NCBI GenBank assembly: GCA_015709695.1
Contig: CP054183.1
Coordinates: 1,662,992-1,726,991 of the forward strand
Direction: 5' to 3'
Source of the DNA: Gammaproteobacteria bacterium
Lineage (GTDB): Bacteria > Pseudomonadota > Gammaproteobacteria > Steroidobacterales > GCA-2729495
Length of the DNA stretch: 64,000 nucleotides
The stretch's first letter is position 1. Each line of letters begins with the position of its first letter. The notes under the pieces were generated by a model, which saw only the letters and a list, made by a program, of their open reading frames with translations, was not told the origin of the DNA and searched no databases. Shown one piece after another: positions 21,336 to 55,098 of the stretch. Both the position numbers and the translations under genes were made by a program.

Positions 21336-23762
21336 TCAGCCCGCGCCGAGCTTCGCCAGCGCCGCCTTCGCCTCGACCACGCCGGGGAACTCGGCCTTGC
21401 CGTCACCCACGGCCTTGCCCAGCGACTGCTTCGCGCCCGCGGTGTTGTTGGTGGCGATGTAGGCCATGCCCAGGTGGTACTGCAGCATGGGGATGTTGCT
21501 GGCGCCGGCCACCGCCCGCTCGAGGAACTGCACCGCCTTCGGGTAGTCCTTGTTGCGGTAATAGGCCCAGCCAATGGTGTCGAGCACCGCGGGGTTGGTG
21601 GTCTCCGCGAGCGGCTTGACCAGCTCCAGCGCATGCGACCAGCTCGCCGCGTCGGAGCGGTAGTCCAGCAGCAGCGCGGCCAGGTTGTTGGCGGCCACCT
21701 CGACCTTCGGGTTGGCCTTGAGCAGTTCCTCGTAGTGGGTGATGGCCTCGTCCCAGCGACGCTGCTGCTCGTACTCCGAGCCGAGCAGCATGCCGAGCTC
21801 GGCATTGCCGGGGTTGGCGGCGAGACCCTTCTTGTACGCCTCGATGCGCGCGGCCGGGTCGTCGTTGTCGAGGCTGGCCAGCGCCGCCCAGGCCATGCTG
21901 GCCTTGGGCTGGGCGGTGACGATCTCCTGGAAGATCTTCTCGGCGGAGACCTTGTCACCGGCCTGGGCGCGCACGCCACCCTCGAGGAACTTCGCCGAGA
22001 GGTCCTGCGGATTGGCCGCCTGGAAGTCCTTCAGCGCCTTCATCGCCTCGTCCTTGCGGCCCATGGCGTTGAGCGTGCCGACCAGGCCTTCCAGCGCCAG
22101 GGTCCACTGCGGGTTGCGCTCCAGCGCTTTGCGGAAGGCGTCCGCCGCCTCGGCGTTCTTCTCCTGCGAGCGCATGACGCGCGCCAGCTGGAAGTAGCCG
22201 ACGCCCTTGTCGTCGGGCAGCGCCACCATGCGGCGCGCCTCGGCCTCGGCGGCGCTCCACTGCTTCTGCGAGCCGAGCAGCGTCACCAGACGGCTGCCGG
22301 CATCGAGGTCGCCGGGCGCCTTCTTCAGGTGGTCGCGCAGCACCTGCTCGGCGCCGTCGATGTTCTTGTCCGCCACTTCCAGGGCCGCGAGCTCGCGCGG
22401 GCCATCGGCATTCAGCGGGTCGGCGGCGATCAGGCGCCGGTAGGCATCCTTGGCGAGGACCTTGTCGTCCATCAGCGTGTGGGTGCGGGCCAGCAGCAGC
22501 ATCGCCCGGGTGTTCTCCGGCTCCTTGCGCAGCACCGTGCGGATATCGGCGATGGCGTCGTCGAACTTCTTGTCGCGCACGCGCAGCCCGGCGCGGATCA
22601 GCAGCGCCTCGGGGTTGTCGGGTTCGTCGGCGAGCACGGCCTCGATCTGCGCCCGGCCGGGCTCGATCTCGCCCTTGGCGATCTTCAGCGCCGCCACCCG
22701 CACCCGCGCCGACATCCCGGCCTTGGACTTCGGATCGCGCTTGGCCAGCTCCTCGTAGACGGCGAGCGCCGCATCGGGCTTGCGCGTGGCCTCGTAGAGC
22801 CGGCCGAGGGCGAGCCGCAGCTCGGGCTGGTCGGGATCCTCGGCGACGAAGGCCTCGAGCGCCTTCTCCGCCTCCTCGGGGCTGCGCATCTGGCCGAGGA
22901 ACTGCGCCAGGCCGAGGCGCGCGTCGACATCCTTGGGGTCCGTGGCGATGACGCTGCGCATGACCTTCTCGGCGTCGTCGATGCGGCCCTCGCCGGCGTA
23001 GAAGCGCGCCAGCTGGTACTGCAGCTCCTCTTCCTTGGGAAAGTCGCGGATCAGGTCACGGATGCCCTGCTCCACCTCGTCCTTGCGGTTCTGCTGGGCG
23101 AGGATGGCGATGCGCACCTGGCGCAGCGGCTTGGCGGCCTCGGCAGCGAGCCGGGCGATGCCGGCATCGAGGATCTTCAGGCCGGCGGCGGCGTCGCCCT
23201 GCTGGGCCTCGATGGCGGCGCGCAGCAGGATGCCGTCCACCAGGTCCGGGTCCTTGGCCAGCGCGGCATCGAGTTCCTTGCGGCCCTCCTCCATCTTCTT
23301 GTCCTGGAGCAGCAGGCGCGCGTTGAGCACCCGCACCGTCGGGTCATCGGGCGCCAGCGCGGTGGCGGCCTTGGCCTGCTCGGCGGCCTGCTCGTAGGCC
23401 TGGCCGAAGAAGTACAGCGTGCCGAGCTTGACGCGCGCCGGGACCATGTTCGGATCGGAGTCCACGGCCATCAGCAGCTGCTGGATCATCGGCCGGAATT
23501 CCTGCTGCTTCTCGGCGATCTCCGCCAGCATGTAGTGCGCCCTGGCGTTCTTCGGCTCGATCTGCGCGGCGTTCGCCGCCTCGAGCTTCGCCTTGACGTA
23601 GTCGCCCTGGGCGAAGAGCTCCTCCGCCTTCTTCATGTAGTTGGCGGCGCGCTCCTCCGGCGGCGTGCAGGCGGCGAGCGTGGCGAGCGCCGCGCCGAGC
23701 GCCAGCGCGGTCAGCCAGCGGGCACGCGGGTTGCGGGTGGACGGGGCCGATGCATGGTTCAT
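21336..23762 (-). CDS. prsT: PEP-CTERM system TPR-repeat lipoprotein PrsT
   Basis: This 808-residue outer or inner membrane lipoprotein has signal sequence LATLAAC with Cys32 as lipobox cysteine. The rest is a long array of tetratricopeptide repeats (about twenty, for example NARAHYMLAEIAEKQQEF and NPQWTLALEGLVGTLNAMG). It matches the TPR lipoprotein that marks exosortase A-type loci and is presumed to scaffold polysaccharide secretion or PEP-CTERM protein handling. The stop of the wecB gene directly abuts its start codon (23763/23762), so the genes are one operon. Confidence 0.93.
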   Translation of the reverse strand: MNHASAPSTRNPRARWLTALALGAALATLAACTPPEERAANYMKKAEELFAQGDYVKAKLEAANAAQIEPKNARAHYMLAEIAEKQQEFRPMIQQLLMAVDSDPNMVPARVKLGTLYFFGQAYEQAAEQAKAATALAPDDPTVRVLNARLLLQDKKMEEGRKELDAALAKDPDLVDGILLRAAIEAQQGDAAAGLKILDAGIARLAAEAAKPLRQVRIAILAQQNRKDEVEQGIRDLIRDFPKEEELQYQLARFYAGEGRIDDAEKVMRSVIATDPKDVDARLGLAQFLGQMRSPEEAEKALEAFVAEDPDQPELRLALGRLYEATRKPDAALAVYEELAKRDPKSKAGMSARVRVAALKIAKGEIEPGRAQIEAVLADEPDNPEALLIRAGLRVRDKKFDDAIADIRTVLRKEPENTRAMLLLARTHTLMDDKVLAKDAYRRLIAADPLNADGPRELAALEVADKNIDGAEQVLRDHLKKAPGDLDAGSRLVTLLGSQKQWSAAEAEARRMVALPDDKGVGYFQLARVMRSQEKNAEAADAFRKALERNPQWTLALEGLVGTLNAMGRKDEAMKALKDFQAANPQDLSAKFLEGGVRAQAGDKVSAEKIFQEIVTAQPKASMAWAALASLDNDDPAARIEAYKKGLAANPGNAELGMLLGSEYEQQRRWDEAITHYEELLKANPKVEVAANNLAALLLDYRSDAASWSHALELVKPLAETTNPAVLDTIGWAYYRNKDYPKAVQFLERAVAGASNIPMLQYHLGMAYIATNNTAGAKQSLGKAVGDGKAEFPGVVEAKAALAKLGAG

Positions 23763-24899
23763 TCAGGACACTCCGTTGATGGCGGCCGCCGGGGCCGTCT
23801 CGAGGCGGGCACGCAGGCTGGCGACACAGCGGCCGGCCGTGCGCCCGTCCCACAGTTCGGGCTTGCGCCCCGCCGGCCAGTCGCCGGCGAGCGCTTTGCC
23901 GATATTCTCCAACAGCGCCGCCGGCTTCACCAGCCGGTTGCTGCCCTCGGTGACCGTGACCGGCCGCTCGGTGTTGGGCCGCACGGTCAGGCAGGGAATG
24001 CCGAGGTAGGTAGTCTCCTCCTGCAGCCCGCCGGAATCGGTGACCGCCAGGGCCGCGTGGGTGACCAGGCCCATGAACTGCACGTAGCCCAGCGGCTCGA
24101 TCAGGCGGATGCCGGGCGTGGTCGCCAGGCCGTCGTGCAGGCCGAACTCGCGCAGCTGCTTGCGCGTGCGCGGGTGCACCGGGAACACCATGTCGATGGA
24201 GCGGGCGGCCGCCTGCAGCTGCGTGACCAGGCCGCGCAGGGTCGCCGGGTCGTCGACGTTGGAGGGCCGGTGCAGGGTGACCACGCCGTAGCGGCGGCCG
24301 CCGAGGCCGAGGCCGGCGCTGGTGGCGTCGGCGGCGATCTTCGCGCGCAGCAGCTCGAAGGAGTCGAGCATGATGTTGCCGACGCGCTCGATGCGCGAGG
24401 CGGGCACGCCCTCGCGCCGCAGGTTCTCGTCGCCGTCGGGCGAAGGCGTCCACAGCAGGTCGGAGATGGCATCGGTGACCAGCCGGTTGATCTCCTCCGG
24501 CATGGCGCGGTCGCCGCTGCGCAGGCCCGCCTCGAGGTGTGCCACCGGGATCAGCAGCTTGGCGCAGACCAGGGCCACCGCGGCCGTGGAGTTGACGTCG
24601 CCGACGACGATGGTCCAGTCCGGCCGCTCGCGCAGCGCGACCTGCTCGTAGGCCATCATCACGCGGCCGGTCTGCTCGGCGTGGCTGCCGCTGCCGACGG
24701 CGAGGTGATGATGCGGCTCGGGCAGCCCCAGGTCGCTGAAGAAGGCATCCGACATGTTGGCGTCGTAATGCTGGCCGGTGTGGACGATGCGCGGTGCGAA
24801 CAGCGGATCGGCGGCCAGCGCATGGTAGAGCGGCGCCACCTTCATGAAGTTCGGGCGCGCCGCGGCCACCAGGTGCACGAGGACCGGGCGGCTCATCAC
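23763..24899 (-). CDS. wecB: UDP-N-acetylglucosamine 2-epimerase (non-hydrolysing)
   Basis: This 378-residue cytoplasmic enzyme converts UDP-GlcNAc to UDP-ManNAc for surface polysaccharide synthesis. The signatures are RPNFMKVAPLYHAL near the start, TGQHYDANMSDAFF, HLEAGLRSGDRAMPEE and TDSGGLQEETTYLGIP, all diagnostic for WecB. The length fits the family. Its ATG overlaps the exosortase stop codon by 4 nt and it abuts prsT, so it is translated with the exosortase unit. It suggests that the polymer contains ManNAc or a derivative such as ManNAcA. Confidence 0.95.
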   Translation of the reverse strand: MMSRPVLVHLVAAARPNFMKVAPLYHALAADPLFAPRIVHTGQHYDANMSDAFFSDLGLPEPHHHLAVGSGSHAEQTGRVMMAYEQVALRERPDWTIVVGDVNSTAAVALVCAKLLIPVAHLEAGLRSGDRAMPEEINRLVTDAISDLLWTPSPDGDENLRREGVPASRIERVGNIMLDSFELLRAKIAADATSAGLGLGGRRYGVVTLHRPSNVDDPATLRGLVTQLQAAARSIDMVFPVHPRTRKQLREFGLHDGLATTPGIRLIEPLGYVQFMGLVTHAALAVTDSGGLQEETTYLGIPCLTVRPNTERPVTVTEGSNRLVKPAALLENIGKALAGDWPAGRKPELWDGRTAGRCVASLRARLETAPAAAINGVS

Positions 24900-26524
24900 T
24901 CGGCCTTCGCGGTCTGCAGCACCGCTTCGCGCCCCGGCACGAAGTAGGCGAGCTTCGGGTCGAGGGCGCGCACGAAGGCCTGCAGCCGCTGGTCCGCCTT
25001 CTCCAGGCCGTCGGGCCCGTCATCCACCATGGTGATGACGCGCACCAGGGCGCCGTCGGTGCGCCGCTGGGTCAGGCCGTCCCAGAAGATGTACCACTTC
25101 ACCAGGTACTCGTTGGTGAGCATGCGGCCACGCTGCGCGAACCAGTAGTACACCAGCTGGCGGGCGCCGCCCTGGGCGATGATCGAGCGGTTCACCGGCA
25201 ACGGGCCGCCATCGGCACGCACGTCGGGGATCTCCACGGCCTGCAGCATCTGCATCTGCCAGCCGCCGCCAGGCAGGCAGGTGGCCGGCGAGTGGATGGC
25301 GCGGCCGCTGCGCTGGTTGCTGTAGTAGGCCATCCACAGGCTGACTTCCGCGTGTTCGTCGGCGCGGCGGTAGAGCGCGAGGATGGTGTCGTCCGCCTTC
25401 AGGGTATCCAGCGAGACCTGGTCCACGGGCATCTCGCTGCCATGCCAGTCGCCGAGCACCAGCGGAAAGCTGGCGAGGCTGGAACGCGCCGGCACCAGGT
25501 CCTGGCGCTGTTCGACCACACCCATGATCGCGGTGCCGATCAGCACGGCGAGACCGGCGACGAAGCCGGCGCGCTGCGCGCCCTGCGCGGTGAAGATCCG
25601 CCAGGCCTCGGCCAGCGGCGGCGTGTCCATGCGAAGCGACCTCAGCAGGCGCCGCCCGGAGAGGCGCGCCATCAGCGTCATCTCCAGGAACAGGATGGCC
25701 ACGCAGGCCATGAACACCACCCAGCCCTCGAAGTCGTGCAGGAAGCCCTCGGCCTGCTCCGAGCCGTAGAGGCTCACCAGGATGCCGATGCCGCCGATGC
25801 GCACGCTGTTCATCAGCACCGTGAGCGGCACCGACGAGAGGAAGACGATGGCACGCTGCCAGGCCGGCGCCTGGAACAGCACCGCGCAGAGGAAGCCGAA
25901 GCTCATCAGCGGGAACAGGTAGCGCAGGCCGCTGCAGGCCTCGGCCACCGCCAGCTGGTAGCTGCCGAGGTCGATGAGGTTGCCCTCGACGAACACCGGC
26001 ACGCCGGCGAGGCGGATCACCGCCACGCCGATCTGCGTGGACAGCAGCTGCAGCCCTGCGGTGAGCTTCACCTCGAGGAAATCCGGCAGCGGCACCATGA
26101 ACACCAGGTAGAACAGCGCCGGCCACACCAGCTTCACCGCCGGCCAGCCCCAGACGGCGACGAAGCAGCCCCAGACGGCGGTGATGAAGCCGTACTGCGC
26201 GATGGTGAAGATCGAACTCAACGAGCCGAGCAGCAGCAGCAGGAAACCGAGCAGCACCAGCCACAGCCCGGCGAGCGAGCCCGGCCAGGGCACCGCCGCC
26301 AGTTCGCGCGAGCGGGTGGCGATCAGGAAGGCGGCGATGAACGGGATCAGGTAGCAGTGGTTGTACTCGTCGCGCGGCCAGTCCTTGACCCACATCCAGT
26401 GCAGGGAGTCGCGGAAGGCGAAGATCAGGATACCGATGAGCACCGCCAGCAGCAGGGTGGCGGGCAGCTTGCTGGCGCTGCCCGGGGCTGGCGCGCCGGA
26501 TGGTGCAATCGTCTCTGCTGACAT
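24896..26524 (-). CDS. Exosortase fused to EpsI domain (XrtA/XrtD type)
   Basis: This 542-residue inner-membrane transpeptidase-like enzyme cleaves PEP-CTERM tails. The N-terminal part (about 1-290) has eight or so helices with the exosortase catalytic residues: Cys197 in AEACSGLRYLFP, Arg242 in MNSVRIGG and His263 in FLHDFEGWVVF. The C-terminal 230 residues are an EpsI domain (for example SRAIHSPATCLPGG-like RSGRAIHSPATCLPGGGW). The ATG at 26524 follows GGCGAGA and discards 41 non-conserved residues. The sorting tails in this window are of VPxPA type, which favours XrtD, while the PrsT, kinase and ATPase neighbours are typical of XrtA; I leave this open. Confidence 0.93.
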   Translation of the reverse strand: MSAETIAPSGAPAPGSASKLPATLLLAVLIGILIFAFRDSLHWMWVKDWPRDEYNHCYLIPFIAAFLIATRSRELAAVPWPGSLAGLWLVLLGFLLLLLGSLSSIFTIAQYGFITAVWGCFVAVWGWPAVKLVWPALFYLVFMVPLPDFLEVKLTAGLQLLSTQIGVAVIRLAGVPVFVEGNLIDLGSYQLAVAEACSGLRYLFPLMSFGFLCAVLFQAPAWQRAIVFLSSVPLTVLMNSVRIGGIGILVSLYGSEQAEGFLHDFEGWVVFMACVAILFLEMTLMARLSGRRLLRSLRMDTPPLAEAWRIFTAQGAQRAGFVAGLAVLIGTAIMGVVEQRQDLVPARSSLASFPLVLGDWHGSEMPVDQVSLDTLKADDTILALYRRADEHAEVSLWMAYYSNQRSGRAIHSPATCLPGGGWQMQMLQAVEIPDVRADGGPLPVNRSIIAQGGARQLVYYWFAQRGRMLTNEYLVKWYIFWDGLTQRRTDGALVRVITMVDDGPDGLEKADQRLQAFVRALDPKLAYFVPGREAVLQTAKAE

Positions 26525-26762: not shown

Positions 26763-28871
26763 ATGGCGGGCACCGGTGCCCACGCTATGAATGGTAACCC
26801 AGGACCCCCGCCCGCCCATGGCACGGACGCGGCCGCGATCGAAGCGGCCAACCGCGCCCTCAAGGATGCCGCCTGGGCGGAACAGAACGGGCTGGCGGAG
26901 CGTGCCATCGCCGCCTACCGGCGCGTGGTGCAGCTGGCGCCGCACATCCACCAGGCGCACAACAATCTCTCCGGCCTGCTGCTCGGCATCGGCCAGGCGC
27001 AGGAAGCGCTGGCCGCGGCGCGCCAGGCGCTCGCCCTGCAGCCCGACGACCCGATGGTCAACGCCAATGCCGGCCAGGCCAGCGTCGCCTGCGGGCTGGT
27101 CGACGAAGGCATCGCCCTGCTGCGCAAGGCGCTGCTGGCCCGCTCGGACATGCACCCGCTGCGCGCCCTGCTGGCCGACGTGCTGGTGGATGCCGGCCGG
27201 CTCGAGGACGGCGCCGCGCTGTTCAGCTCCGTCGAGGGCCAGTACCAGAACGACGCGCGCTTCCTCGCCGCCGCCGCGCGCCTGTATGCGCGTGTCGGGC
27301 TGGCGGGCAGCGCCGAGGCGAGCTACATCCGCCTGCTGCAGCTCGAGCCGCGGCGCGCCGCCACCTACAACGACTGCGCCCAGCTCTACAACGAGCACAC
27401 GCAGTTCAGCAAGGCACGCGAGCTGTGCCTCAAGGGCCTGATGCTCGAACCCGATGCACCGGTGATGTGGAACACGCTGGCCAACGCCCAGGCCTGCATG
27501 GGGCAGACCGGCGAGGCGCTGCAGTCCTACCACAGGGCGCTGGAGCTCGCGCCGGCGCTGGCCGCCACACGCTCCAACCTGCTGCTCGCCATGCACTACT
27601 CCAGCGAGGTGACGCCGGCGCAGCGGGTGCAGGCGCACCGCGAGTTCGGCCGCCTGCACGCGCAGCCGGCCGCCGCCGCGCGCGCCTTCGCCAACAGCGC
27701 GGATCCGGGGCGACGCCTGCGCATCGGCTACAGCTCGCCGGATTTCCGCACCCACTCGGTGGCCTTCTTCTTCGAGCCGCTGCTCGAGCACCGCGACCGC
27801 GAGGGCTTCGAGGTCGTGGCCTTCGCCGACGTCAAGGGTCCGGACGCGGTGACCGCGAGGCTGCGGAGCCAGTGCGACGAGTGGCACAGCATCGTCAACC
27901 TGCCGGACGCCGTCATCGCCGAGCGCGTGCGCGCCGCCGGGATCGACATCCTCGTCGACCTCGCCGGCCACGCCGGCAACACCCATGCGGCCGCCCTGGC
28001 CTGGAAGGGCGCGCCGGTGCAGGTCACCTACTGCGGCTACCCGGACACCACCGGGCTCGAGGCCGTCGACTACCGCATCACCGATGACATCGCCGATCCG
28101 CCCGGCGTCGATGCCGACTACGCCGAGCGGCTGGTACGGCTGCCGGGGAGCTTCCTCTGCTTCCGCCCGCCGCCGCTGCTGCCCGACATCACCCCGCCGC
28201 CGGGGCCGGGCCGCGGCCACGTCACCTTCGGCTGCTTCAACCGCGAGTTCAAGGTATCGAAGCAGGCCTACGACCTCTGGGCGCGGATCCTGCGCTCGGT
28301 GCCGGGCTCGCGCCTGGTGATGAAGTGCCTGGGCGCGGCCGACGCCGGCACCCGCGCCTTCCTCCTCGGCGAGTTCGAGCGCCGCGGCATACCGGCTGCG
28401 CGCATCGAGCTGGTGGGCTTCATCGCCAGCCAGCAGGAGCACTACGGCTGGTACCGGCAGGTGGACGTGGCGCTCGACACCTTTCCCTACAACGGCACCA
28501 CCACCACGCTCGACTCGCTGATGATGGGCGTCCCGGTGGTGACGCTGGCCGGCGACTGCCACGCCGGCCGCGTGGGTGCGAGCCTGCTCACCCGCATCGG
28601 CATCCCGGAGTTCATCGCCCGCGACGCCGACGAGTACGTCGCGCTCGCCATCGAGCTGGCCTGCGATCCGGAGCGCATCGCCGGGCTGCACGGCAGCCTG
28701 CGCCAGCAGCTGTTCGCCAGCGAGCTCTGCGACGGCGCGACGTTCATGGCCGGCTTCGAGTTCGCGCTGCGCGGCATGTGGGCCAACTGGTGCCGCCGGC
28801 AGGGCGCGACGCTGACGCCCCGGCAGCAGGCCATGGCGGCCTTCGATTTCAGCGTGCTGCGGCGGTCCTGA
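26763..28871 (+). CDS. TPR protein with GT41 O-GlcNAc-transferase (SPINDLY-like) domain
   Basis: This protein of up to 702 residues has tetratricopeptide repeats at about residues 25-265 (for example HIHQAHNNLSGLLLGIGQ). A GT41 catalytic region at about 300-690 opens with RRLRIGYSSPDFRTHSVAFF and includes HAGNTHAAALAWKGAPVQV and LDTFPYNGTTTTLDSLMMG, the UDP-sugar site of OGT-like enzymes. It should add a sugar to Ser/Thr of protein substrates held by the TPR. It reads divergently from the exosortase. An ATG at 26787 is an alternative start; neither has a clear ribosome site. Confidence 0.92.
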   Translation: MAGTGAHAMNGNPGPPPAHGTDAAAIEAANRALKDAAWAEQNGLAERAIAAYRRVVQLAPHIHQAHNNLSGLLLGIGQAQEALAAARQALALQPDDPMVNANAGQASVACGLVDEGIALLRKALLARSDMHPLRALLADVLVDAGRLEDGAALFSSVEGQYQNDARFLAAAARLYARVGLAGSAEASYIRLLQLEPRRAATYNDCAQLYNEHTQFSKARELCLKGLMLEPDAPVMWNTLANAQACMGQTGEALQSYHRALELAPALAATRSNLLLAMHYSSEVTPAQRVQAHREFGRLHAQPAAAARAFANSADPGRRLRIGYSSPDFRTHSVAFFFEPLLEHRDREGFEVVAFADVKGPDAVTARLRSQCDEWHSIVNLPDAVIAERVRAAGIDILVDLAGHAGNTHAAALAWKGAPVQVTYCGYPDTTGLEAVDYRITDDIADPPGVDADYAERLVRLPGSFLCFRPPPLLPDITPPPGPGRGHVTFGCFNREFKVSKQAYDLWARILRSVPGSRLVMKCLGAADAGTRAFLLGEFERRGIPAARIELVGFIASQQEHYGWYRQVDVALDTFPYNGTTTTLDSLMMGVPVVTLAGDCHAGRVGASLLTRIGIPEFIARDADEYVALAIELACDPERIAGLHGSLRQQLFASELCDGATFMAGFEFALRGMWANWCRRQGATLTPRQQAMAAFDFSVLRRS

Positions 28872-28888
28872 GCAGCGGCCAGCCGCCT

Positions 28889-29782
28889 TCAGGCCTGGGC
28901 GATCAGCCCCTGCACGAACTGCCTGCCCGCCGCGTTCTCCGGCGGAATCAGCTCATCGTGCAGGCATTGCAGCAGCTCGCGGACCAGTTCGTGCCGGCCC
29001 TGCTGCCGGTACTGCGCGGCACGCTGGATGATGTCCTCGCCGAGACGGCCGCGCAGCGAGGGATGGTGGCTGATCCTCACCGGGCCGTCGAAGCGCCGCT
29101 GCGCGCCGGTGCCGCGGAAGTTCCAGCCCTCGTCGAGGATCGCGAGCTTCACCCCGTGGCGGTTGTTGTCGGGGCTGAGCAGCTCCACCAGGCTGGTCTG
29201 GTCCATGAACAGCGCCTCGCGACGGATCTCCGGGTCGGCGATGTGCGCGGTCACCGCGGTCGGCGGCGGCACCGGCCGGTTGCCAAGCTCGAAATTCTGC
29301 CGCGTGAGCTCCTCCCAGCCGGCGAGCAGCGCCTGCACCGGCGGCGAGCGGCGGAAGAGGATGTGGCCGACGTTGAACATGGCCCTGCCGGTCATCTGCG
29401 CGCACTTGCTGACATCGGGCTGGCAGACGGCCATGGCGATGTCGATGTCGCGCAGGCGCCCGAACAGGGTGAGGAACTCGGCGCTCAGCACGCGTGTGTC
29501 GGTATCCAGGTGCAGGGTGTACTCGTAGGGCGACTGGCGCAGCGAGCGGATGCGGTCGAGCTGGCCCTCGGCCCACAGGCTCTGGTAGCTGCGCCGCGTG
29601 GCCAGCGGCACCACGCTGCTGAAGGCCGGGCTGCGGCAGAAGGGCAGCTCCGGCAGGTCGGTGAACAGCGTCACCGGCAGCTGTGGGGCGAAGTCGCGCG
29701 CGCTGGCGGCGGAGAGGAAGGCCTCCGCCACGTAATGCGGCCGGCGCGTCGCCACGTAGACCATGCCGATGTCCGCCGTCAC
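28889..29782 (-). CDS. Glycosyltransferase-like protein with DxD motif
   Basis: This 297-residue soluble protein starts at a GTG (29782) placed after GAGGGGG, and the start lies 10 nt past the end of the sulfotransferase-like gene. The N-terminal Rossmann-like part leads to YEYTLHLDTDTRVL, a DxD motif that binds nucleotide sugar and metal in GT-A enzymes. Further on are QPDVSKCAQM and FRRSPPVQALLAGWEELT, as in proteins that move sugars to peptide or polysaccharide acceptors. I cannot assign a CAZy family by eye. It is the last of a four-gene minus-strand unit starting at the SlyD-like gene. Confidence 0.75.
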   Translation of the reverse strand: MTADIGMVYVATRRPHYVAEAFLSAASARDFAPQLPVTLFTDLPELPFCRSPAFSSVVPLATRRSYQSLWAEGQLDRIRSLRQSPYEYTLHLDTDTRVLSAEFLTLFGRLRDIDIAMAVCQPDVSKCAQMTGRAMFNVGHILFRRSPPVQALLAGWEELTRQNFELGNRPVPPPTAVTAHIADPEIRREALFMDQTSLVELLSPDNNRHGVKLAILDEGWNFRGTGAQRRFDGPVRISHHPSLRGRLGEDIIQRAAQYRQQGRHELVRELLQCLHDELIPPENAAGRQFVQGLIAQA

Positions 29783-29792
29783 CGTCACCCCC

Positions 29793-30557
29793 TCAGGCCG
29801 CGAGCCCGAGCCGGCGCAGGATGTCGGCGTCGAGCCCGGCGCGGAAGGCGGCGAGCAACGCCGGGCTGGCCGCCTCCGCCCGCGTGAACTCGCGCTCCAG
29901 CTGCGTGGCGACCGGCGCACCGAGCAGTTCGTAGATCTCCTCGGTGCCGCGGGGATGCAGGTAGCCCGCGGGCTGCTGCAACCCGCCGCTGCGGCGCAGT
30001 CGCAGCGCCGCCGCCATGCGCTCCAGCCAGCGCTCCGGGTCCTGGCGCAGGGCATCGGTGTCGACAACGATGCTGCGCGGCCCGAGGTTCGCCAGCCAGT
30101 CCGCATGGCGGGTGTTCCAGGCGGCGGCGGCTTCCGCGGGCGAGCTGCCGAAGGGCAGAAAATCCGGCGCCTCGGCGGCGATGCGCAGCACGCTCGCATA
30201 CCAGCGTGCGGGATCGCGCACCGCCAGCGCCACGGCGAAGTCCTGCGCGCGCTGGGCGGCAACCGCCTCGCGGTAGAAGGCGCTGCCGGCGAGGCCCGCC
30301 CAGGCCGCCGGCTGCTCGTGCCTGAAGCGGTGCAGTTCCGCCGCGTAGCGCGGATCGACGAACTCGTCGGGCCCGAGTTCCCTGCCATCGCGGTAGATCG
30401 GCCCGTGCTTCCAGCCGAGCAGCATGGTGGCGGTGCGCAGCCCAGTGAAATTCCGCCGCAGCATCCAGGTCAGCAGGTTGGTGCCCGAGCGCATCAGGCC
30501 CGCGATGCGCACCAGCGTGGGCGCTGGCGCCCCTGGCCCGGCATTGGCTGGCGTCAC
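29793..30557 (-). CDS. Sulfotransferase-like protein
   Basis: This 254-residue cytoplasmic protein has near its start VRIAGLMRSGTNLLTWML, which matches the 5'-phosphosulfate loop of PAPS-dependent sulfotransferases (RSGTN in place of a P-loop GKS). A later ALAVRDPARWYASVLR corresponds to the 3'-phosphate binding region. It overlaps the oxygenase gene stop by 4 nt (ATGA) and is followed by the DxD glycosyltransferase-like gene. It could sulfate a sugar on polysaccharide or on protein; target unknown. Confidence 0.78.
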   Translation of the reverse strand: MTPANAGPGAPAPTLVRIAGLMRSGTNLLTWMLRRNFTGLRTATMLLGWKHGPIYRDGRELGPDEFVDPRYAAELHRFRHEQPAAWAGLAGSAFYREAVAAQRAQDFAVALAVRDPARWYASVLRIAAEAPDFLPFGSSPAEAAAAWNTRHADWLANLGPRSIVVDTDALRQDPERWLERMAAALRLRRSGGLQQPAGYLHPRGTEEIYELLGAPVATQLEREFTRAEAASPALLAAFRAGLDADILRRLGLAA

Positions 30558-32035
30558 GGCGGCAGCAGGTCGAAGGCGATGCAGAGCCGTTCCTCGTCGG
30601 AGCGGAAGGGAATGGTGCGGTGATAGAGCGACGAGGGAAAGAAGGCGATCTGGCCGGGCTTCGGCTGGTGCAGCAGGGTCGGCGATGGCCGCTCCGACAG
30701 CCGCGGATAGGCGCCGCTCTCCAGGCCGAACTCGATGGCGCCCTCGCCCGCCGCCGCGCGCTGCGGCAGCTGCAGGTACAGGCAGCCGCTCATCCAGCCG
30801 AAGGGGTGGTTGTGGAAATGCTGGTGGCCGCCCGTCAGCAGGCGCACGAACCAGCCCTGCAGCCGCAGCGTGCCGGGCCAGCGGGTGATCATGGTCATGC
30901 TGGTGGGCATCAGCGCGGCGCGATAGCGCTCCAGCCCGGCGAGGATGTCGCGCTCCAGCCGCGCCAGCGCCGGAAAGCCGTGGCGGAACAGGTTGCCGCC
31001 GGTCTGGAAGCCGCCGATGGTGGTGACGCCGCGGGGCTCCCAGATCGCCGTCACCTGGCTGGCCTCGCGGATCAGGTCCTGCAGGAAGGCCTGGTCGGCG
31101 CCCACGCCGGTGTAGACATCCATGACCCGCACGCGCTGCAGCGGATCCGGGCAGAACGGATGGGGATCGCGCCGGCCCAGGTGCCAGGAGGCGTAGGCCG
31201 CGAGCGAGGCCGAGTGCAGGTTGGTCGCCTCCGCCTCGCTGTGGCCGCGGATTTCCTCGAAGAACTCCTCATGCCGGCCGAGGCGCAGCAGGCACTCCAG
31301 GGCCTGCGCATGCGCGTAGGGCTTGCCCGAGGCGCGCAGCAGCGGCAGGGCCTCGGCATAGTCAGTGCCATTCTTCAGCATCAGGCCCAGGCTTTCGCTG
31401 GCCTCCGCCTGCCCGGGCTCCAGGGCGATGGCGCGGCGGTAGCTTGCCACCGCCTCCTCCACGCGCCCGGCATCGCGCAGGCCGTTGCCGAGGAAGGCGT
31501 GGACGGCGGCGCTCTCCGGGGCGGTGGCCCGCGCCGCCTCGAGAAACGGCAGGGCCTCGGCGGGCCGGCGCAGCTGCACCAGCAGGTTGCCGAGGCTGAG
31601 GTTGGCGCGACCGTGATGCGCATCGGCGGCGACGGCGCGCCGGTACTCGGCTTCGGCCGCCTCCAGCTCGCCGCAGGCATGCAGCGCATTGCCGAGGTTG
31701 GTGCGCGCCTCGATATGGCCGGCGTCGAGCGCCAGCGCGGCACGCAACGGCGCCAGCGCCGCCTCCGGATGGCCGAGCATGACCTGCATGGCGCCGAGGT
31801 CGGACTGCACCGCGACCAGCGCGGGATCGGCGCGAAGCGCGCGCTCGAGCAGCCGCAGCGCCTCCTCACCGCGCCCGCAACGGAAGCGTACCAGCGCCAG
31901 CAGGTGCAGGGCCCGCGGATCGGCGGCCTGCTGCGCCAGCCGCGCCTCGCAGGCGGCCTCGGCCTCCGTCAGCCGTCCGGCGGCCAGCGCGGTCCGCGCC
32001 GCGGCCAGCGGCTCCTCGATGGCGATGCTGCTCAT
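30554..32035 (-). CDS. TPR protein with C-terminal 2OG-Fe(II) oxygenase-like domain
   Basis: This 493-residue protein has about eight TPR units at roughly residues 10-260 (for example AHHGRANLSLGNLLVQLRR). The C-terminal domain contains QHFHNHPFGWMSGCLYLQLP and PGQIAFFPSSLYHRTIPF. These match the putative 2-oxoglutarate/Fe(II) oxygenase family PF13759, whose metal residues are in the first His cluster and the later His. Family members are often fused to TPR and lie near sulfotransferases, as here. The ATG at 32035 follows GAGG and lies 7 nt after the SlyD-like gene. Hydroxylation of a protein or peptide substrate is a reasonable guess. Confidence 0.82.
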   Translation of the reverse strand: MSSIAIEEPLAAARTALAAGRLTEAEAACEARLAQQAADPRALHLLALVRFRCGRGEEALRLLERALRADPALVAVQSDLGAMQVMLGHPEAALAPLRAALALDAGHIEARTNLGNALHACGELEAAEAEYRRAVAADAHHGRANLSLGNLLVQLRRPAEALPFLEAARATAPESAAVHAFLGNGLRDAGRVEEAVASYRRAIALEPGQAEASESLGLMLKNGTDYAEALPLLRASGKPYAHAQALECLLRLGRHEEFFEEIRGHSEAEATNLHSASLAAYASWHLGRRDPHPFCPDPLQRVRVMDVYTGVGADQAFLQDLIREASQVTAIWEPRGVTTIGGFQTGGNLFRHGFPALARLERDILAGLERYRAALMPTSMTMITRWPGTLRLQGWFVRLLTGGHQHFHNHPFGWMSGCLYLQLPQRAAAGEGAIEFGLESGAYPRLSERPSPTLLHQPKPGQIAFFPSSLYHRTIPFRSDEERLCIAFDLLPP

Positions 32036-32042
32036 GATGGCC

Positions 32043-32507
32043 TCAGTCCTCGCCAAGTTCCTCGGCGGTCGCCGCGCGCACGGCGACGACCTGACCCTCG
32101 AAGCGCAGGGTCTGCCCCGCCAGCGGGTGGTTGGCATCCAGTGTCACCGTGGTCTCGTCGAGCGCGGTGACGACATAGCGCCGCGGCGGGGTGCCGTCGG
32201 TGGCGTCGCCTTCACGGTCCACCTGCATGCCGAGGGTGATCTGATCGGCATGGGCGATGGCGGCACGCGGCACCACCTCGATGAGGCGCGCCTCGCGCTC
32301 GCCGAAGCCCTCTTCCGGGGTGATGGTGATGTCGAAGCGCTCCCCCGCCGAGCGACCCGCCAGCGCCTGTTCCAGCAGCGGCAGGATGCCCTCGGCGCCG
32401 TGCAGGTAATCCAGCGGCTCGCCGGCCGGCGAACTGTCGAGCAGCTCGCCCCGGTCATTGCTGAGGCGGTACTCGAGGCTGACGACGCAGCGGTCGGCGA
32501 TCTGCAT
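32043..32507 (-). CDS. SlyD-like FKBP-type peptidyl-prolyl isomerase
   Basis: This 154-residue cytoplasmic PPIase begins MQIADRCVVSLEYRLSND and has LDYLHGAEGILPLLEQAL, the flap of SlyD-type FKBPs. An insert-in-flap chaperone domain follows (residues about 70-125). Unlike E. coli SlyD there is no long His/Cys-rich metal-binding tail; it ends EELGED. It is the first gene of the unit with the TPR oxygenase, sulfotransferase-like and glycosyltransferase-like genes, and it may help fold their substrates. Confidence 0.9.
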   Translation of the reverse strand: MQIADRCVVSLEYRLSNDRGELLDSSPAGEPLDYLHGAEGILPLLEQALAGRSAGERFDITITPEEGFGEREARLIEVVPRAAIAHADQITLGMQVDREGDATDGTPPRRYVVTALDETTVTLDANHPLAGQTLRFEGQVVAVRAATAEELGED

Positions 32508-32603
32508 GGGCGGTCCTTGCGCGGAGCGGTAGTATCGTTATAGCGGCCATTCTCGGGGCCAGCCAGCGACGCGGTCAAATCACCAGGATTGACTTAATGC
32601 GCC

Positions 32604-33908
32604 ATGAATGAAAAACCCTATCTCGAAGCGGTCCGGCAGCAGTACGAAGCGCTGCCCTATCCGCCGCGCGATCCCGCCGACGAAGCGCGGCGGCTGGTGC
32701 TCGCCACCTCGGGCAACCTGCTGGTGATCAACCACCACTGCTTCGGCGGACGTCGCGACTTCCGCCAGGGCTTCCGCTGCCTGGTGGCCGGCGGCGGCAC
32801 CGGGGACACCACGATCTTCCTCGCCGAGCAACTGCGGCATCACGACGCCGAGGTGGTGTACCTCGACCTCTCCACCGCCTCGCGTGCCGTGGCCGAGGCC
32901 CGCGCCCGGGTGCGGGGCCTGAAGAACATCCGCTGGGTCACCGGCTCGATCCTCGAGCTGCCGCGGCTCGGGCTGGGCCGGTTCGACTACATCGAATGCT
33001 GTGGCGTGCTGCATCACCTGGAGTCCACCGAAGCGGGCCTCGCGGCGCTCACGGCGGTGCTCGCGGAGGATGGCGCGCTGTTCCTCATGCTCTACGGGCG
33101 TCATGGCCGGCGGGTGGTCTACGACATGCAGCAGCTGCTGCGCGACTGGCTGCCCGCGGGGCTGCCGATCCCGGAGAAGATCCGGCTGACCCGCCAGCTG
33201 CTGGCGGCCCTGCCGGCGACCCACGGCTTTGCCCGCGACTACGAGCAGTGGCGCAGCGAGATCGAGGCCGAAGGCCTCGGCGATGCCGGCCTCTACGACC
33301 TGCTCCTGCACAGCCAGGACCGCTGCTTCGAGGTGCCCGAGCTCTACGCGCTGGCCGCCGGCGCCGGGCTGCAGCTGCTCGGCTTCGCCCATCGCGCCGA
33401 CGCCTACGAGCCGCGCAACCACATCGGCGACGGCGGGCTCGCCCCCACCCTTGCAGGCTGGAGCCTGGAACGGCGCCAGGCGCTGGCGGAGCAACTGGTC
33501 GGCAACCTGCGCAAGCACGAGTTCTTCCTCGGCCGGCAGCCGGGACGCACCGCGACCCTGGACGACGAGGGCCTGGCGCTGCGTTCCTTCGGCACGCTGC
33601 ACGACAATGCCGCGAAGCTGGCCGCCGACATGGTGCCGGGGCGCGTGCTGCGCTACCGGGATCCGGAACACAGCCTGCCGATCGCCTGCAGCGCCATCTC
33701 GAAGCAGATCTATGCCCACATGGACGGGAGCCTGTCGCTTGCGGACCTGCGCCGTCACATCCTGGCCACGGTGCCGGGCTCGACCGCGGAGCAGGTCGCG
33801 CAGGAACTGCGGCAGGTCTACGACCAGCTCCACCCGCGCGGCTACCTCTACCTGATCGAGGCCGGCCGCTACGGCGTCACCGTGCCGGACTACGCGCAGC
33901 TGCGCTGA
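32604..33908 (+). CDS. Class I SAM methyltransferase with C-terminal PqqD/winged-helix-like domain
   Basis: This is a methyltransferase of 434 residues, larger than usual. It starts with VRQQYEALPYPPRDP, a phrase typical of a group of protein-linked methyltransferases. The SAM motif FRCLVAGGGTGDTTIFLA is near residue 60 and YIECCGVLHHLES follows. The C-terminal 90 residues (about 345-434) contain SKQIYAHMDGSLSLADLRRHI, which resembles peptide-binding or regulatory domains seen in modification systems. It diverges from the SlyD-like gene, so it could share control with that unit. Substrate unknown. Confidence 0.82.
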   Translation: MNEKPYLEAVRQQYEALPYPPRDPADEARRLVLATSGNLLVINHHCFGGRRDFRQGFRCLVAGGGTGDTTIFLAEQLRHHDAEVVYLDLSTASRAVAEARARVRGLKNIRWVTGSILELPRLGLGRFDYIECCGVLHHLESTEAGLAALTAVLAEDGALFLMLYGRHGRRVVYDMQQLLRDWLPAGLPIPEKIRLTRQLLAALPATHGFARDYEQWRSEIEAEGLGDAGLYDLLLHSQDRCFEVPELYALAAGAGLQLLGFAHRADAYEPRNHIGDGGLAPTLAGWSLERRQALAEQLVGNLRKHEFFLGRQPGRTATLDDEGLALRSFGTLHDNAAKLAADMVPGRVLRYRDPEHSLPIACSAISKQIYAHMDGSLSLADLRRHILATVPGSTAEQVAQELRQVYDQLHPRGYLYLIEAGRYGVTVPDYAQLR

Positions 33909-34043: not shown

Positions 34044-34709
34044 TCAGGCCCTGGCGCGGCGACGTACCGCACCGAGCAGGCCCACGGCGGAACCGAACAG
34101 CCAGACCGCTGCCGGCACCGGGACGACGGCCTGCGGGCCGGCGTTGAACGTCCAGGTCTGGCCTGCCGTACCCGTGCTGTTCGACAGCGTCAGCGCGGTG
34201 CCGACCCAGCTGAGGGTCGAGATGCCGTTCAGGTCAGCCACGCTCTGCGCCGGTCCTTTGACAATGTCATCACCGCCCATGGTGCGGGTGACGGACGAGC
34301 CGGAGTACACCACCGTCGATTCGTTGGTGAAGTTGGCACCGAAGGTGTAGTTGCCGCAGATGCTGGCGCCGACCACACCGCCGAAGTTGCCTTCGATGCA
34401 GGACCAGGTGGTCGCACTCGCCGCACCACCGCCACCGATCACCAGACCCGTCGAGGTGTGACGCATCAGGGTGGACGTCGGTGACGTGTTGAAGCGGACA
34501 TTCAGCGTGCCGCCGGTCTGGCTCATGATGCCGGTCACGTCATCGTACTGCCACGTGGCGGTGGACGATGAAATGTTGCCGGCCGAGGGGCCATTGGCGC
34601 TGCTCATGGCGATGCCGGTCAGCGTGGCCGAGTACAAGGCCGCGTTGGCGGAAGCAGCACCCAGGGTGGCGGCGATCGCCAGCCCCAGCTTGGTTGCAGT
34701 CTTGTTCAT
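34044..34709 (-). CDS. PEP-CTERM exported protein, paralogue 1 of 3
   Basis: This 221-residue secreted protein has a signal peptide ending at ASANAA. The domain that follows is shared with the next two genes: STATWQYDDVTGIMSQTGG, then a Cys pair around SCIEGNFGGVVGASICGNYT, then VVYSGSSVTRTMGGDD. The tail VPVPAAVWLFGSAVGLLG with a basic end is a PEP-CTERM signal. The ATG at 34709 has TGGAGG at suitable spacing. I do not recognise the central domain. The protein is probably released or anchored at the outer surface by the exosortase encoded at 24896-26524. Confidence 0.88.
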   Translation of the reverse strand: MNKTATKLGLAIAATLGAASANAALYSATLTGIAMSSANGPSAGNISSSTATWQYDDVTGIMSQTGGTLNVRFNTSPTSTLMRHTSTGLVIGGGGAASATTWSCIEGNFGGVVGASICGNYTFGANFTNESTVVYSGSSVTRTMGGDDIVKGPAQSVADLNGISTLSWVGTALTLSNSTGTAGQTWTFNAGPQAVVPVPAAVWLFGSAVGLLGAVRRRARA

Positions 34710-34922
34710 CCAGTCAATCCTCCAGGTATAAGGGTGGGTACGTCTCTTGGTGGCTTCTTCCCGAGGTGACAACCCGGCCATCTCTTCCCCTCCCCCTGTA
34801 CGCCCTTCGTCCTGGAGAGCCCGAGATCCGCTGGCTTTGCGTCACAGGCTCGCGCCTGCTTTGCCCTTTCCTCTTTTTCTCTTCCTCTTTCTCTTCTGCT
34901 CAAACTCTGCGTTTCGATCGCC

Positions 34923-35645
34923 TCATGAAATCTTGCGGCGCCGGGCAAAGCGTCCGGCAGCCAGCACCGCGGGGCCGAGCAGCCAGGCGGCGGCGGGCAC
35001 CGGCACGACGGCCTGCGGGCCGGCGTTGAACACCAGCTGCATGCCCTTGTTGTACAGGGGCGCGCCGGTGATCGTGGTGCAATTGGCGGCAGGCGACAGC
35101 GTGCACACACCGTTGCTCAGGGTCAGCGTGGTGCCCACCCAGCTCACGGTCGACATGCCGCCGAGATCCGCTACGCTCTGCGGCGGGCCTAGCGCAGCGT
35201 CATCGCCACCCATCGTGCGGGTGACCGACGAACCCGAGTACACCAGCGTCGAGTCGTTGGCGTAGTTGGCGCCGAAGGTGTAGTTGCCGCAGAGGTTGGC
35301 GCCCACGTTTCCGCCGAAGTTGCCTTCCTGGCACGTATAGGTCGTGGCACTGGCTGCACCGCCGGCGCCGATCGTCAGACCGGTGGTGAGGTAGCGGAAT
35401 AGCGTGGTGGTCGGGGTCGTGGTGAAGCGGACGTTCAACGTGCCGCCGCTCTGGGTCATGATTCCGGTGACATCGTCGTACTGCCACGTGGCAGTCGACG
35501 AGGTGATGTTGCCGTTCGAGGCACCGTTGTTGCTGAACGTCTGGAACGAGGTCAGCGTGGCCGAATACAGCGCCGCATCGGCGGCCGTGGCACCCAGCGT
35601 CGCCGCGATGGCGAGGCCGAGCGCAGTTCTGGTCTTGTTCCCCAT
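34923..35645 (-). CDS. PEP-CTERM exported protein, paralogue 2 of 3
   Basis: This 240-residue protein has a signal peptide ending at ATAADA and the same central domain as its two neighbours: STATWQYDDVTGIMTQSGG, CQEGNFGGNVGANLCGNYT and VVYSGSSVTRTMGGDD (here LVYSGSSVTRTMGGDD). It carries an extra loop, CTLSPAANCTTITGAPLYN, that is absent from paralogue 1 and present in paralogue 3. The tail is VPVPAAAWLLGPAVLAAG with RRRK. AGAGGGG lies just before the ATG. Close similarity at DNA and protein level indicates tandem duplication. Confidence 0.88.
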   Translation of the reverse strand: MGNKTRTALGLAIAATLGATAADAALYSATLTSFQTFSNNGASNGNITSSTATWQYDDVTGIMTQSGGTLNVRFTTTPTTTLFRYLTTGLTIGAGGAASATTYTCQEGNFGGNVGANLCGNYTFGANYANDSTLVYSGSSVTRTMGGDDAALGPPQSVADLGGMSTVSWVGTTLTLSNGVCTLSPAANCTTITGAPLYNKGMQLVFNAGPQAVVPVPAAAWLLGPAVLAAGRFARRRKIS

Positions 35646-35792
35646 CTGTCCCCTCTTCTTTCGTTCTTTATGGAAGGCCAGCGACCCCGACTCTATCGGA
35701 CTGCCCGGGGGGTGCGGCAACCTGTCCCTTTACATAAAGCCGGGGTATTCACCCGGAACCTGCCGGCCTGACCACTATGTGGACAGGGCAGC

Positions 35793-37142
35793 TCAGGCCC
35801 GCCGCCGGCGCCGGCCCAGGGCCGCGCCGCCGAAGAGCGAGAGGATCGCCCAGTCGAGCGCGCTGCCGCCGTCGTCCTCGCGCAGGCCGGTGGAGCTGAA
35901 CGGCGGGTTCGGCGCGGCGATGGTCACGCTGATGGTGCCGCTGTCCGAATCGCCATCAGCGTCGGTGATGGTGTAGCCGAAGCTGTCGCTGCCGCCCGTC
36001 TGCGCGCCGGTCAGCGTGTAGGTGACGGAGGTGCCCGAGACCGAGGTCGTGCCCAGCGTGCCGGCGGTGGCAGTGACGGTCACGGGAGCATCACCCATGA
36101 GGTTGCCGGTGATGGCCGCCACGTCGAGGGTCTGCGGCCCGCCGCTGGCGGGTACGGTCAGGCTGCCGTTGTTGGCGTTCGGCACCGCGTTGTTCACGGT
36201 GACAGCCACGGTGGCGCTGTCGGACTGGCTGCCGCTGGTGACCGTGTAGCCGAAGTTCTCGGCATAAGTGGCGGTATTGGGCACCGCGGAGGGCGTCAGG
36301 GTGAGGCGGATGCTGGCCGCCGAAGCGGTGCAGGGATCCGCGCAGGCCTGCGAAGCGGTGGCGCCGTTGTCGGTGATGACCACCGCGCCGCCGTGATCCG
36401 GCGGGGTGCTGATGGACACGGTGACCGGATCCACGAGGCTGGTGTCGTTCGCCAGCGCATCGATCACCACCGCGGTGTTCACGCGGGTGATGGCGCTGTC
36501 GTTCACCGCGTCGGGCGGCAGCGGCAGCTGGAAGGTCACCCTGATGCCCTTGTTGTACAGCGGGTTGCCGGCGATCGTGGTGCAGTTGCTGGCCGGTGAC
36601 AGCGTGCACACGCCGTTGGTCAGGACCAGCGAGGTGCCGGTGACGGTGGCGGTCATGCCGTCGAGGTCCGACAGGCTCTGCGGCGGGCCGAGCGGCGCGT
36701 CGTCGCCACCCATGGTGCGGGTCACGGACGGGCCCGAGTAGACCACGGTCGACTCGTCGGTGAAGTTGGCGCCGAACGTGTAGTTGCCGCAAAGGTTCGC
36801 GCCCACCACGCCGCCGAAATTGCCTTCGATGCAGGACCAGGTGGTGGCGCTGGCTGCGCCGCCGGCGCCAATCGCCAGGCCCGTCGACGTATGGCGGAAC
36901 AGGGTCGTGGCTGGCGAGGTGTTGAAACGGGCATTCAGGTCGCCACCCGTCTGGGTGACGATGCCGGTGGCATCGTCGTACTGCCAAGTGGCCGTCGTCG
37001 AGCTCAGGTTGCCGTTCGAAGGACCGTTGTTGCTGAAGGTCGTGTACTGCTGGAGGGTGACCGTGGTCACCGCCGCCTGCGCCGTGCCCGCACCCAGACT
37101 TGCCGCAATGGCCATCGCCAGCGCGTTGGTATTCCGATTCAT
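35793..37142 (-). CDS. Exported paralogue 3 with cadherin/Ig-like repeats and GlyGly-CTERM-like tail
   Basis: This 449-residue protein shares the signal peptide and first 210 residues with the two genes downstream of it on the same strand (STATWQYDD-like, GANLCGNYTFGANFTDEST, CTLSPASNCTTIAGNP). After LPLPPDAVNDSAITRVNT it continues with about two beta-sandwich repeats of the VLANDT/cadherin-like kind (ENFGYTVTSGSQSDSATVAV, DSFGYTITDADGDSDSGTI). The end, DDGGSALDWAILSLFGGAAL plus RRRRR, is a GlyGly-CTERM-like tail, not PEP-CTERM. The ATG at 37142 follows GGGAGGG six nt away, so a longer upstream frame is rejected. Confidence 0.85.
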   Translation of the reverse strand: MNRNTNALAMAIAASLGAGTAQAAVTTVTLQQYTTFSNNGPSNGNLSSTTATWQYDDATGIVTQTGGDLNARFNTSPATTLFRHTSTGLAIGAGGAASATTWSCIEGNFGGVVGANLCGNYTFGANFTDESTVVYSGPSVTRTMGGDDAPLGPPQSLSDLDGMTATVTGTSLVLTNGVCTLSPASNCTTIAGNPLYNKGIRVTFQLPLPPDAVNDSAITRVNTAVVIDALANDTSLVDPVTVSISTPPDHGGAVVITDNGATASQACADPCTASAASIRLTLTPSAVPNTATYAENFGYTVTSGSQSDSATVAVTVNNAVPNANNGSLTVPASGGPQTLDVAAITGNLMGDAPVTVTATAGTLGTTSVSGTSVTYTLTGAQTGGSDSFGYTITDADGDSDSGTISVTIAAPNPPFSSTGLREDDGGSALDWAILSLFGGAALGRRRRRA

Positions 37143-39705: not shown

Positions 39706-41369
<1,664 letters not shown>

Positions 41370-41373
<4 letters not shown>

Positions 41374-42611: not shown

Positions 42612-43617
42612 CCGCAAGCTCTGGAGCGGCCGCGTCGATGCGGCGGAAGGCGCCCGCGCGCGGCGCTGGCACCAGGTGGTGCAACCGCTGCAGCCCGGGC
42701 TGGCGCCCGGTGTCGCCCTGCTCGGTTTCGCCTGCGACGCCGGCGTGCGCCGCAACCAGGGCCGGCCCGGTGCGGCCGCGGGGCCGGCCGCCATCCGCGG
42801 CATGGCGGCGGCGCTGGCCTGGCACGGCGACGGGCACAGGCCGCTGATCGATGCCGGCGATGTCGCCTGCAGCGGCGATGAACTCGAGGCCGCGCAGGCC
42901 ACGCTCGGCGAGCGCGTGGCCGGCCTGCTGCGCGCCGGCCACCTGCCCCTGCTCCTCGGCGGCGGACACGAGATCGCCTGGGGTTCGTTCCAGGGCGTGG
43001 CCCAGGCGTTCCCCGACCAGCTCGACGGCTATGGCGTGCTCAACTTCGACGCCCACTTCGACCTGCGCCGCCCGCCGGACGGGCGAGGTCATTCCGGTAC
43101 ACCCTTTCTGCAGATCTCGGAGGCCCTTGCCTTGCGCCACCTGCCCTTCCGCTACCTCTGCGCCGGCGTCAGCGAGGCGTCGAACACCCGGTCCAGCTTC
43201 GACACCGCGCACCGGCTCGGCGTCAGCTGGATCGGCAACGAGGAACTCACCTGGCCGAACCTGCAACGGGCAACGGCCGTCATCGATGCCTTCCTCGATC
43301 GCGTGAAACTGCTCCAGCTCAGCATATGCCTCGATGCCCTGCCCGGCTGGGCGGCGCCCGGCGTCAGCGCCCCGGCGGCACGCGGCGTGGCGCCGGACCT
43401 GTTCTTCGCCCTCCTCGACCACGTGCTGCGGCGCGTGGCCGGCGCGCCCGCGGGCACCGCACCGCGCCTGGTGCTCGCCGAGATCGCCGAGTGCAACCCG
43501 GCCTTCGACCGCGATGGCATCACCAGCCGGCTCGCCGCGCGCATCGCCTTCGATGTCGCCCGCACGGTGACCGCGCCCGGCATCGCCCGGCCGCGGGCCG
43601 GAGGTGCCGCATGCTGA
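42601..43617 (+). CDS. hutG: Formimidoylglutamase (arginase family)
   Basis: This 338-residue enzyme would hydrolyse N-formimidoyl-glutamate to glutamate and formamide, closing the HutU-I-G-H route. Arginase-family metal motifs are present: GGGHEIAWG (His123), NFDAHFDLR (Asp150, His152, Asp154) and SICLDALPG (Asp245). At position 243 Cys takes the place of the first Asp of the usual DxD pair, which normally bridges the second Mn; this could be a subfamily trait or affect metal binding. [12 protein letters not shown] afterwards is typical of HutG. The gene overlaps hutH by 7 nt. Confidence 0.92.
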
Positions 43618-55019: not shown

Positions 55020-55098
55020 GACAGACCAGGTCCTCGAGTCCGGGCAGCCCATGAGACCACAGGCCGCGGAAGGGCGACAACGGCCGGAGCCGCCACGC

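Follow-up and report, generated by a model that had tools for sequence, protein, structure and literature searches.

What do the predicted modification enzymes encoded beside the exosortase gene of this gammaproteobacterial genome act on, and could their substrate be the protein cargo of that exosortase? The window, which is the whole stretch of DNA analysed here (64,000 nt, G000:C1:1662992-1726991), is part of a 3.1 Mb genome in one contig, and a preliminary description had placed six enzyme genes at 26763-33908. All six were found there in the orientations claimed, and just past them lie three paralogous genes for candidate cargo proteins (PEPa1, PEPa2 and PEPb, 34044-37142), which that description had not included.

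Gene content and enzyme families of the locus

The features on which the analysis is based are as follows.

21336..23762, minus strand: PrsT-like TPR lipoprotein (lipobox-like N-terminus and repeats, seen directly)
24896..26524, minus strand: exosortase XrtD fused to an EpsI domain (TIGR04152, 562.7 bits, cut-off 400)
26763..28871, plus strand: SPINDLY-like TPR-GT41 protein, putative O-glycosyltransferase, cassette type (GT41a) (PF13844, 163.9 bits, and TPR)
28889..29782, minus strand: glycosyltransferase-like protein with DxD motif, predicted GT-A fold (LD(T/S)DT motif kept in five relatives)
29793..30557, minus strand: sulfotransferase-like protein, predicted TPST-like fold (PF13469, 24.5 bits, cut-off 27)
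30554..32035, minus strand: TPR repeats fused to a 2OG-Fe(II) oxygenase, hydroxylase-like (PF13759, 76.2 bits, and TPR)
32043..32507, minus strand: SlyD-like FKBP peptidyl-prolyl isomerase (PF00254, FKBP_C, 34.3 bits)
32604..33908, plus strand: class I SAM methyltransferase with a weakly PqqD-like tail (PF08242, Methyltransf_12, 59 bits)
34044..34709, minus strand: cargo PEPa1, with signal peptide, conserved domain (family A5) and VPLPA-type CTERM tag; likely substrate
34923..35645, minus strand: cargo PEPa2, same family as PEPa1 (376.9 bits to the family profile; VPLPA tail 19.3 bits, sub-threshold)
35793..37142, minus strand: cargo PEPb, with the PEPa domain, Big_9 and a different C-terminal tail (313.9 bits to the family profile; PF17963, 31.3 bits)

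The minus strand at approximately 21.3–26.5 kb carries the genes for the PrsT-like lipoprotein, WecB and XrtD-EpsI, and the GT41 gene starts at 26763 on the opposite strand, pointing away from XrtD. The genes for SlyD, the TPR-oxygenase, the sulfotransferase-like protein and the GT-A protein (32507 to 28889) follow one another with no more than about 10 bp between them, and show start/stop overlaps in relatives, for which gene starts came from a simple purpose-written caller; the four genes are thus as tightly packed as first described. The methyltransferase gene points away from this unit. All six enzymes lack a signal-like N-terminus, and 19-residue hydropathy gave no clear membrane segment in any of them, with the maximum of the methyltransferase (1.69) lying inside its domain. 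A peptide substrate of the RiPP type was rejected, as no small precursor gene was seen in the lists of open reading frames (≥60 aa) of the cluster. A scan for sigma-54-like promoters gave 24 sites versus 36 expected.

Two TPR arrays joined to different catalytic domains had been noted, and both were recovered, one on the GT41 enzyme and one on the oxygenase. The latter scores above the gathering cut-off of PF13759, and its metal-ligand region (HNHP...YHRTIPF) is kept in five relatives. Its assignment and that of the SlyD-like isomerase both stood, the isomerase also giving 110 bits to NF008008 (under its cut-off of 174) and 105 bits to SlyD structures. The methyltransferase, with a protein lysine methyltransferase (PDB 8hkr, 80 bits) as its best match, was likewise recognised, while the PqqD-like tail attributed to it reached only 12.4 bits (cut-off 23.4).

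The two remaining enzymes were assigned mostly from predicted structures, which bore out the first assignments despite sub-threshold or absent Pfam matches. The DxD protein, whose family has no Pfam or NCBIfam match, models as a GT-A fold (AF2 pLDDT 76, low TM-scores), with Foldseek matches to GTB, glycogenin, LgtC and COLGALT1. The sulfotransferase-like protein appears to carry the marks of a PAPS-dependent enzyme, namely a P-loop-like 5′-phosphosulfate motif and an RDP...S 3′-phosphate motif (GLMRSG(T/S)NLL and VRDP...S, nucleotide-binding, kept in five relatives) together with the fold, at a Pfam score below threshold. The top Foldseek matches of its AF2 model (pLDDT 72) were TPST1/2 (E 3.8e-4, TM approximately 0.4), and an APS kinase gene, for PAPS supply, is present in the same genome. 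TPST1/2 are eukaryotic Golgi enzymes, whereas the protein described here lacks a signal or membrane segment and has no detectable sequence similarity to them. Sequence searches of the PDB gave no meaningful match for either protein, and the viral structure library gave nothing at E ≤ 0.001 for the sulfotransferase-like protein, with its weak matches mostly annotated as sulfotransferases. Among 369 sampled genomes of the class, the sulfotransferase family gave only one partial 29-bit match elsewhere, and 399 sampled genomes of the phylum gave only weak distant matches to the GT-A family, so no source lineage was found; a plasmid search with the GT-A protein returned a single 26% match, from Halolamina. 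The enzyme classes, comprising a SPINDLY-like GT41, a TPR-oxygenase, a TPST-like sulfotransferase and a lysine-methyltransferase-like protein, fit a role in protein modification.

A SPINDLY-like GT41 enzyme

The GT41 gene had been described as a TPR-GT41 of O-GlcNAc transferase type facing away from the exosortase operon. Its domain make-up and orientation hold, whereas the resemblance to OGT does not: among solved structures in the PDB the protein scores highest with SPINDLY (337 bits), followed by TtOGT (288), XcOGT (154) and human OGT (139). An HMW1C/NGT type of enzyme was rejected as its closest kin, at approximately 40 bits. N-X-S/T enrichment, taken as a sign of HMW1C-like N-glycosylation, was not significant for most of the cargo, with 2/10 cargo rows differing from shuffled sequences at P <0.05. 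The cassette GT41 is therefore nearest to the SPINDLY protein O-fucosyltransferase and not to O-GlcNAc transferase, and its own O-fucosyltransferase activity is putative.

The residues fixing the GDP-fucose pocket were taken from work on SPINDLY, where K689 and Y744 select GDP-fucose and K665 is essential (PMC9715652, PMC10027727). All three are invariant in the 17 aligned related GT41s, and the arginine with which human OGT contacts uridine (position 731) is absent from all 17, which makes a GDP-sugar more likely than UDP-GlcNAc as predicted donor. Other positions differ from SPINDLY in the cassette clade (I592 to Cys or Leu, E752 to Asp, N662 to Arg). Genes for GDP-fucose supply, gmd (C1:3021675) and fcl (C1:1638422), are present in the same genome, and Fcl was found in 6 of 9 genomes with GT41 versus 8 of 31 others (P 0.04). 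Both are absent from G023, and Fcl from G014, so GDP-fucose would not be the donor everywhere unless it is salvaged. The cassette enzyme shares with SPINDLY its catalytic domain, TPR array and these three residues, but SPINDLY targets nuclear and cytosolic proteins, whereas the bacterial enzyme is encoded beside exported surface proteins.

Linkage to a cargo family and to the exosortase

PEPa1 and PEPa2 have a signal-like N-terminus and a hydrophobic C-terminal tail, and PEPa carries a conserved YDD tyrosine. As judged from sequence profiles, PEPa1 combines a signal peptide with a VPLPA/PEP-CTERM tail expected of XrtD cargo (tail alone: TIGR02595 17.7 bits, cut-off 16; TIGR03370 24.0 bits, cut-off 25.35), while the tail of PEPa2 stays sub-threshold and that of PEPb is different, matching only JDVT/MYXO-CTERM models below their cut-offs. 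A profile of this family was searched in 60 relatives, and GT41 was searched in 40 genomes of the bacterial family at E ≤ 1e-60.

Since the linkage and clade groups were drawn after the data had been seen, the P values are descriptive. A gene with the cargo domain was found within 10 kb of 11 of the 22 GT41 loci (9 genomes), versus 0.63 expected by random placement (P ~5e-12). The loci are not wholly independent of one another, G007 and G009 being near-copies, and several of the unlinked ones are on short contigs. By hand count, 18/59 genes of the cargo family were near GT41, compared with 1/32 of other PEP-CTERM genes of these genomes, matched by their C-terminal tail only (Fisher P 0.002). 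In a tree of 36 cargo domains, 16 rows formed a core clade (SH-aLRT 93 at its fork, below star level) found only in G000, G001, G002, G007, G009 and G023, which are exactly the 6/40 genomes with a cassette-type GT41 (P 2.6e-7 across all 40, 0.004 when confined to the genus). In G007, G014, G021 and G026, a second cargo clade (subfamily B) shows linkage to another GT41 subfamily. Some core-clade cargo genes are not linked to GT41, though their host genomes carry GT41a, and G035 and G013 have cargo-like proteins with no GT41 at E ≤ 1e-60. PEP-CTERM cargo had been suggested as the substrate, and this linkage and co-inheritance of a SPINDLY-like GT41 with one VPLPA-CTERM cargo family upholds it as the likely one.

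The same kinds of chemistry recur at GT41/cargo loci with different enzymes, as a shared substrate predicts. Unrelated sulfotransferases were detected at L130 (7261-8613, TPR and Sulfotransfer_3, 135 bits) and L042 (7341-7991, Sulfotransfer_4, 42 bits), a 2OG oxygenase at L042 (4301-4873, PF13640, 50.6 bits), and methyltransferases at such loci as well. A further candidate oxygenase (L043, 17120-18088) was rejected, having only a weak Nucleotid_trans match. Relatives of SlyD were present at five other cargo/GT41 loci, and PrsT paralogues near GT41/cargo at L042, L089, L127, L130 and L132.

The genes are tied closely to the cargo and only loosely to the exosortase. All six had been predicted to keep their synteny with exosortases, and the check for genes scattered independently of exosortases went against this: XrtD scored above its cut-off in 32/60 relatives versus 5/60 with the GT-A gene. 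The cassette genomes nearly all belong to one genus, and several loci are broken in draft assemblies. The cassette adjoins XrtD, WecB and PrsT in G007 (L043, L089), and cargo, hydrolase and SDR genes in G009 (L039). In G023, from another genus, it is accompanied on contig C68 by the hydrolase gene, a PrsT paralogue and three cargo genes, whereas C42 holds both XrtD genes of full length. G002 (L045) has GT41, SlyD, methyltransferase and cargo genes without the trio of GT-A, sulfotransferase-like and TPR-oxygenase genes, and the trio is thus optional; the cluster includes the methyltransferase gene in G000 and G002, but the cassette regions examined in G007, G009 and G023 do not. XrtD is the expected sorter of the PEPa/PEPb cargo, as a neighbour that is not co-inherited with the cassette.

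The first of three alternatives is that the tailoring enzymes decorate an exopolysaccharide made by neighbouring polysaccharide genes, with the cargo only binding the polysaccharide. XrtD loci do stand amid polysaccharide genes (L098), the GT-A enzyme suits either role, and decoration of polysaccharides by sulfotransferases and methyltransferases is common. We nevertheless consider this unlikely, as SPINDLY-like TPR-GT41s act on proteins (PMC9715652, PMC10027727), the G023 module travels with cargo and not with polysaccharide genes, and the best fold matches of the sulfotransferase-like protein are protein tyrosine sulfotransferases.

In G004 (L048), XrtD directly adjoins the hydrolase and SDR genes with neither cassette nor cargo there, and in G008 (L046) other VPLPA-type proteins are encoded in between, which makes the interval beside XrtD a variable cargo island. 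Enzymes and cargo might then be close merely through a shared insertion hot spot, with no common substrate, but this is still less probable, given that the GT41-cargo pairing recurs away from XrtD in several genera, and that the order and tight spacing of the trio are kept across two genera. Least probable is that the GT41 modifies many cytoplasmic proteins, with the cargo as one target or none, like the nucleocytoplasmic OGT and SPINDLY with their intracellular protein targets in eukaryotes (PMC9715652, PMC10027727), since there are several GT41 paralogues per genome, roughly half of the loci lie next to cargo, and GT41 (E ≤ 1e-60) is absent from 31/40 family genomes, as befits dedicated rather than housekeeping targets.

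A proposed cargo-dedicated modification pathway and its significance

Our preferred reading, to which we give a probability of roughly 60%, is that the locus encodes a protein modification module dedicated to the cargo, with cytoplasmic enzymes acting on PEPa/PEPb before export. In the order of steps, donor sugar and chemical outcomes that we infer for this substrate, the TPR groove of the GT41 would hold the unfolded cargo while a single sugar is added to Ser/Thr, with a GDP-sugar (for example GDP-fucose) as the most likely donor, and the GT-A enzyme may lengthen that sugar. The TPR-oxygenase would hydroxylate the cargo, the TPST-like enzyme may sulfate it on tyrosine or on the sugar, and the methyltransferase would methylate it, with SlyD isomerising prolines or maintaining the cargo in an export-competent state. 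By analogy with HMW1C/HMW1 (PMC3983070), this decoration would most likely precede exit via Sec, after which XrtD would process the VPLPA tail.

In the HMW1 system, as proposed here, a GT41 enzyme is encoded with one exported surface protein, which it modifies in the cytoplasm prior to Sec export (PMC3983070). HMW1C differs in being an N-glycosyltransferase without TPR and with only approximately 40 bits to the cassette GT41, and HMW1 leaves the cell by two-partner secretion. To our knowledge, HMW1C has no oxygenase, sulfotransferase or methyltransferase partners. The locus shares XrtD, a PrsT-like protein and VPLPA-type cargo with the PEP-CTERM/exosortase system, but the enzymes described here are linked to one cargo family and not to the exosortase, and the part of the 2006 description of that system covered here assigns no modification enzyme (PMC1569441). 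The same part of that study (Haft 2006, PMC1569441) reports that PEP-CTERM proteins are enriched in Ser, Thr and Asn, a glycoprotein-like composition, and notes a possible guiding role of TPR domains in covalent modification. A literature search of titles and abstract openings, with most subscription papers outside its scope, returned neither an exosortase/PEP-CTERM modification cassette of such make-up nor a paper naming a modification enzyme for PEP-CTERM proteins, which agrees with the initial statement that no described system with this combination was known.

The cassette supplies candidate enzymes and a likely partner cargo for the glycoprotein suspicion of 2006, which can thereby be put to a direct test. 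A further suggestion from it is that some bacterial SPINDLY-like GT41s serve secreted proteins, like HMW1C, and not only intracellular targets. A more far-reaching and tentative reading, which we regard as possible but doubtful, is that of a transferable cassette that moves with its cargo and uses any exosortase of the host, providing O-fucosylation, hydroxylation, sulfation of tyrosine or sugar, and methylation of one surface protein family. If true, exosortase cargo would have its first dedicated modification system known to us, with bacterial protein O-fucosylation and tyrosine sulfation brought together on one substrate.

Variable interval and exosortase copies

The stretch of the window between the exosortase XrtD and the hydrolase/SDR gene pair (26.5-37.2 kb) is a variable cargo island: the corresponding interval lacks an insert in one relative (G004, L048), and holds a different VPLPA-type family in another (G008, L046). 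The window's own genome has two full-length XrtD genes approximately 31 kb apart (C1:1655217-1656674, L098, and window 24896-26524), and several genomes of the genus carry two copies, the first in a polysaccharide locus and the other beside WecB/PrsT. Elsewhere in the window, 39706-45889 and 51563-59527 probably contain histidine-utilisation and Kdp potassium transporter genes, as judged by eye from the translations.

Cargo proteins with a non-VPLPA tail

Three cargo members combine the PEPa domain with Ig/cadherin-like repeats and a non-VPLPA tail (GGSALDWAILSLFGGAALGRRRRRA):
window 35793-37142 (-), PEPb
L089 6768-8684
L128 4750-6732
The nearest models for these tails were MYXO-, JDVT- or GlyGly-CTERM, all sub-threshold, and one and the same cargo domain may be served by two different sorting systems.

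Further enzymes and PrsT-like paralogues

At other loci with GT41 glycosyltransferase and/or cargo genes, unrelated sulfotransferases are encoded, together with small methyltransferases and one 2OG oxygenase of the PKHD type (L042 4301-8544; L130 7261-8613; L129 5399-6496); the L129 product had no family match, and appeared sulfotransferase-like on inspection by eye. An extra gene, conserved in G007 and G009, lies between SlyD and the TPR-oxygenase:
L043 17120-18088 (G007 cassette region), weak nucleotide-diphospho-sugar transferase match
Paralogues of the PrsT-like TPR lipoprotein recur at five GT41/cargo loci away from XrtD, which suggests a cargo-specific role for these proteins:
L042 14347-16734
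L089 895-3267
L127 15483-17900
L130 1268-3652
L132 350-2725
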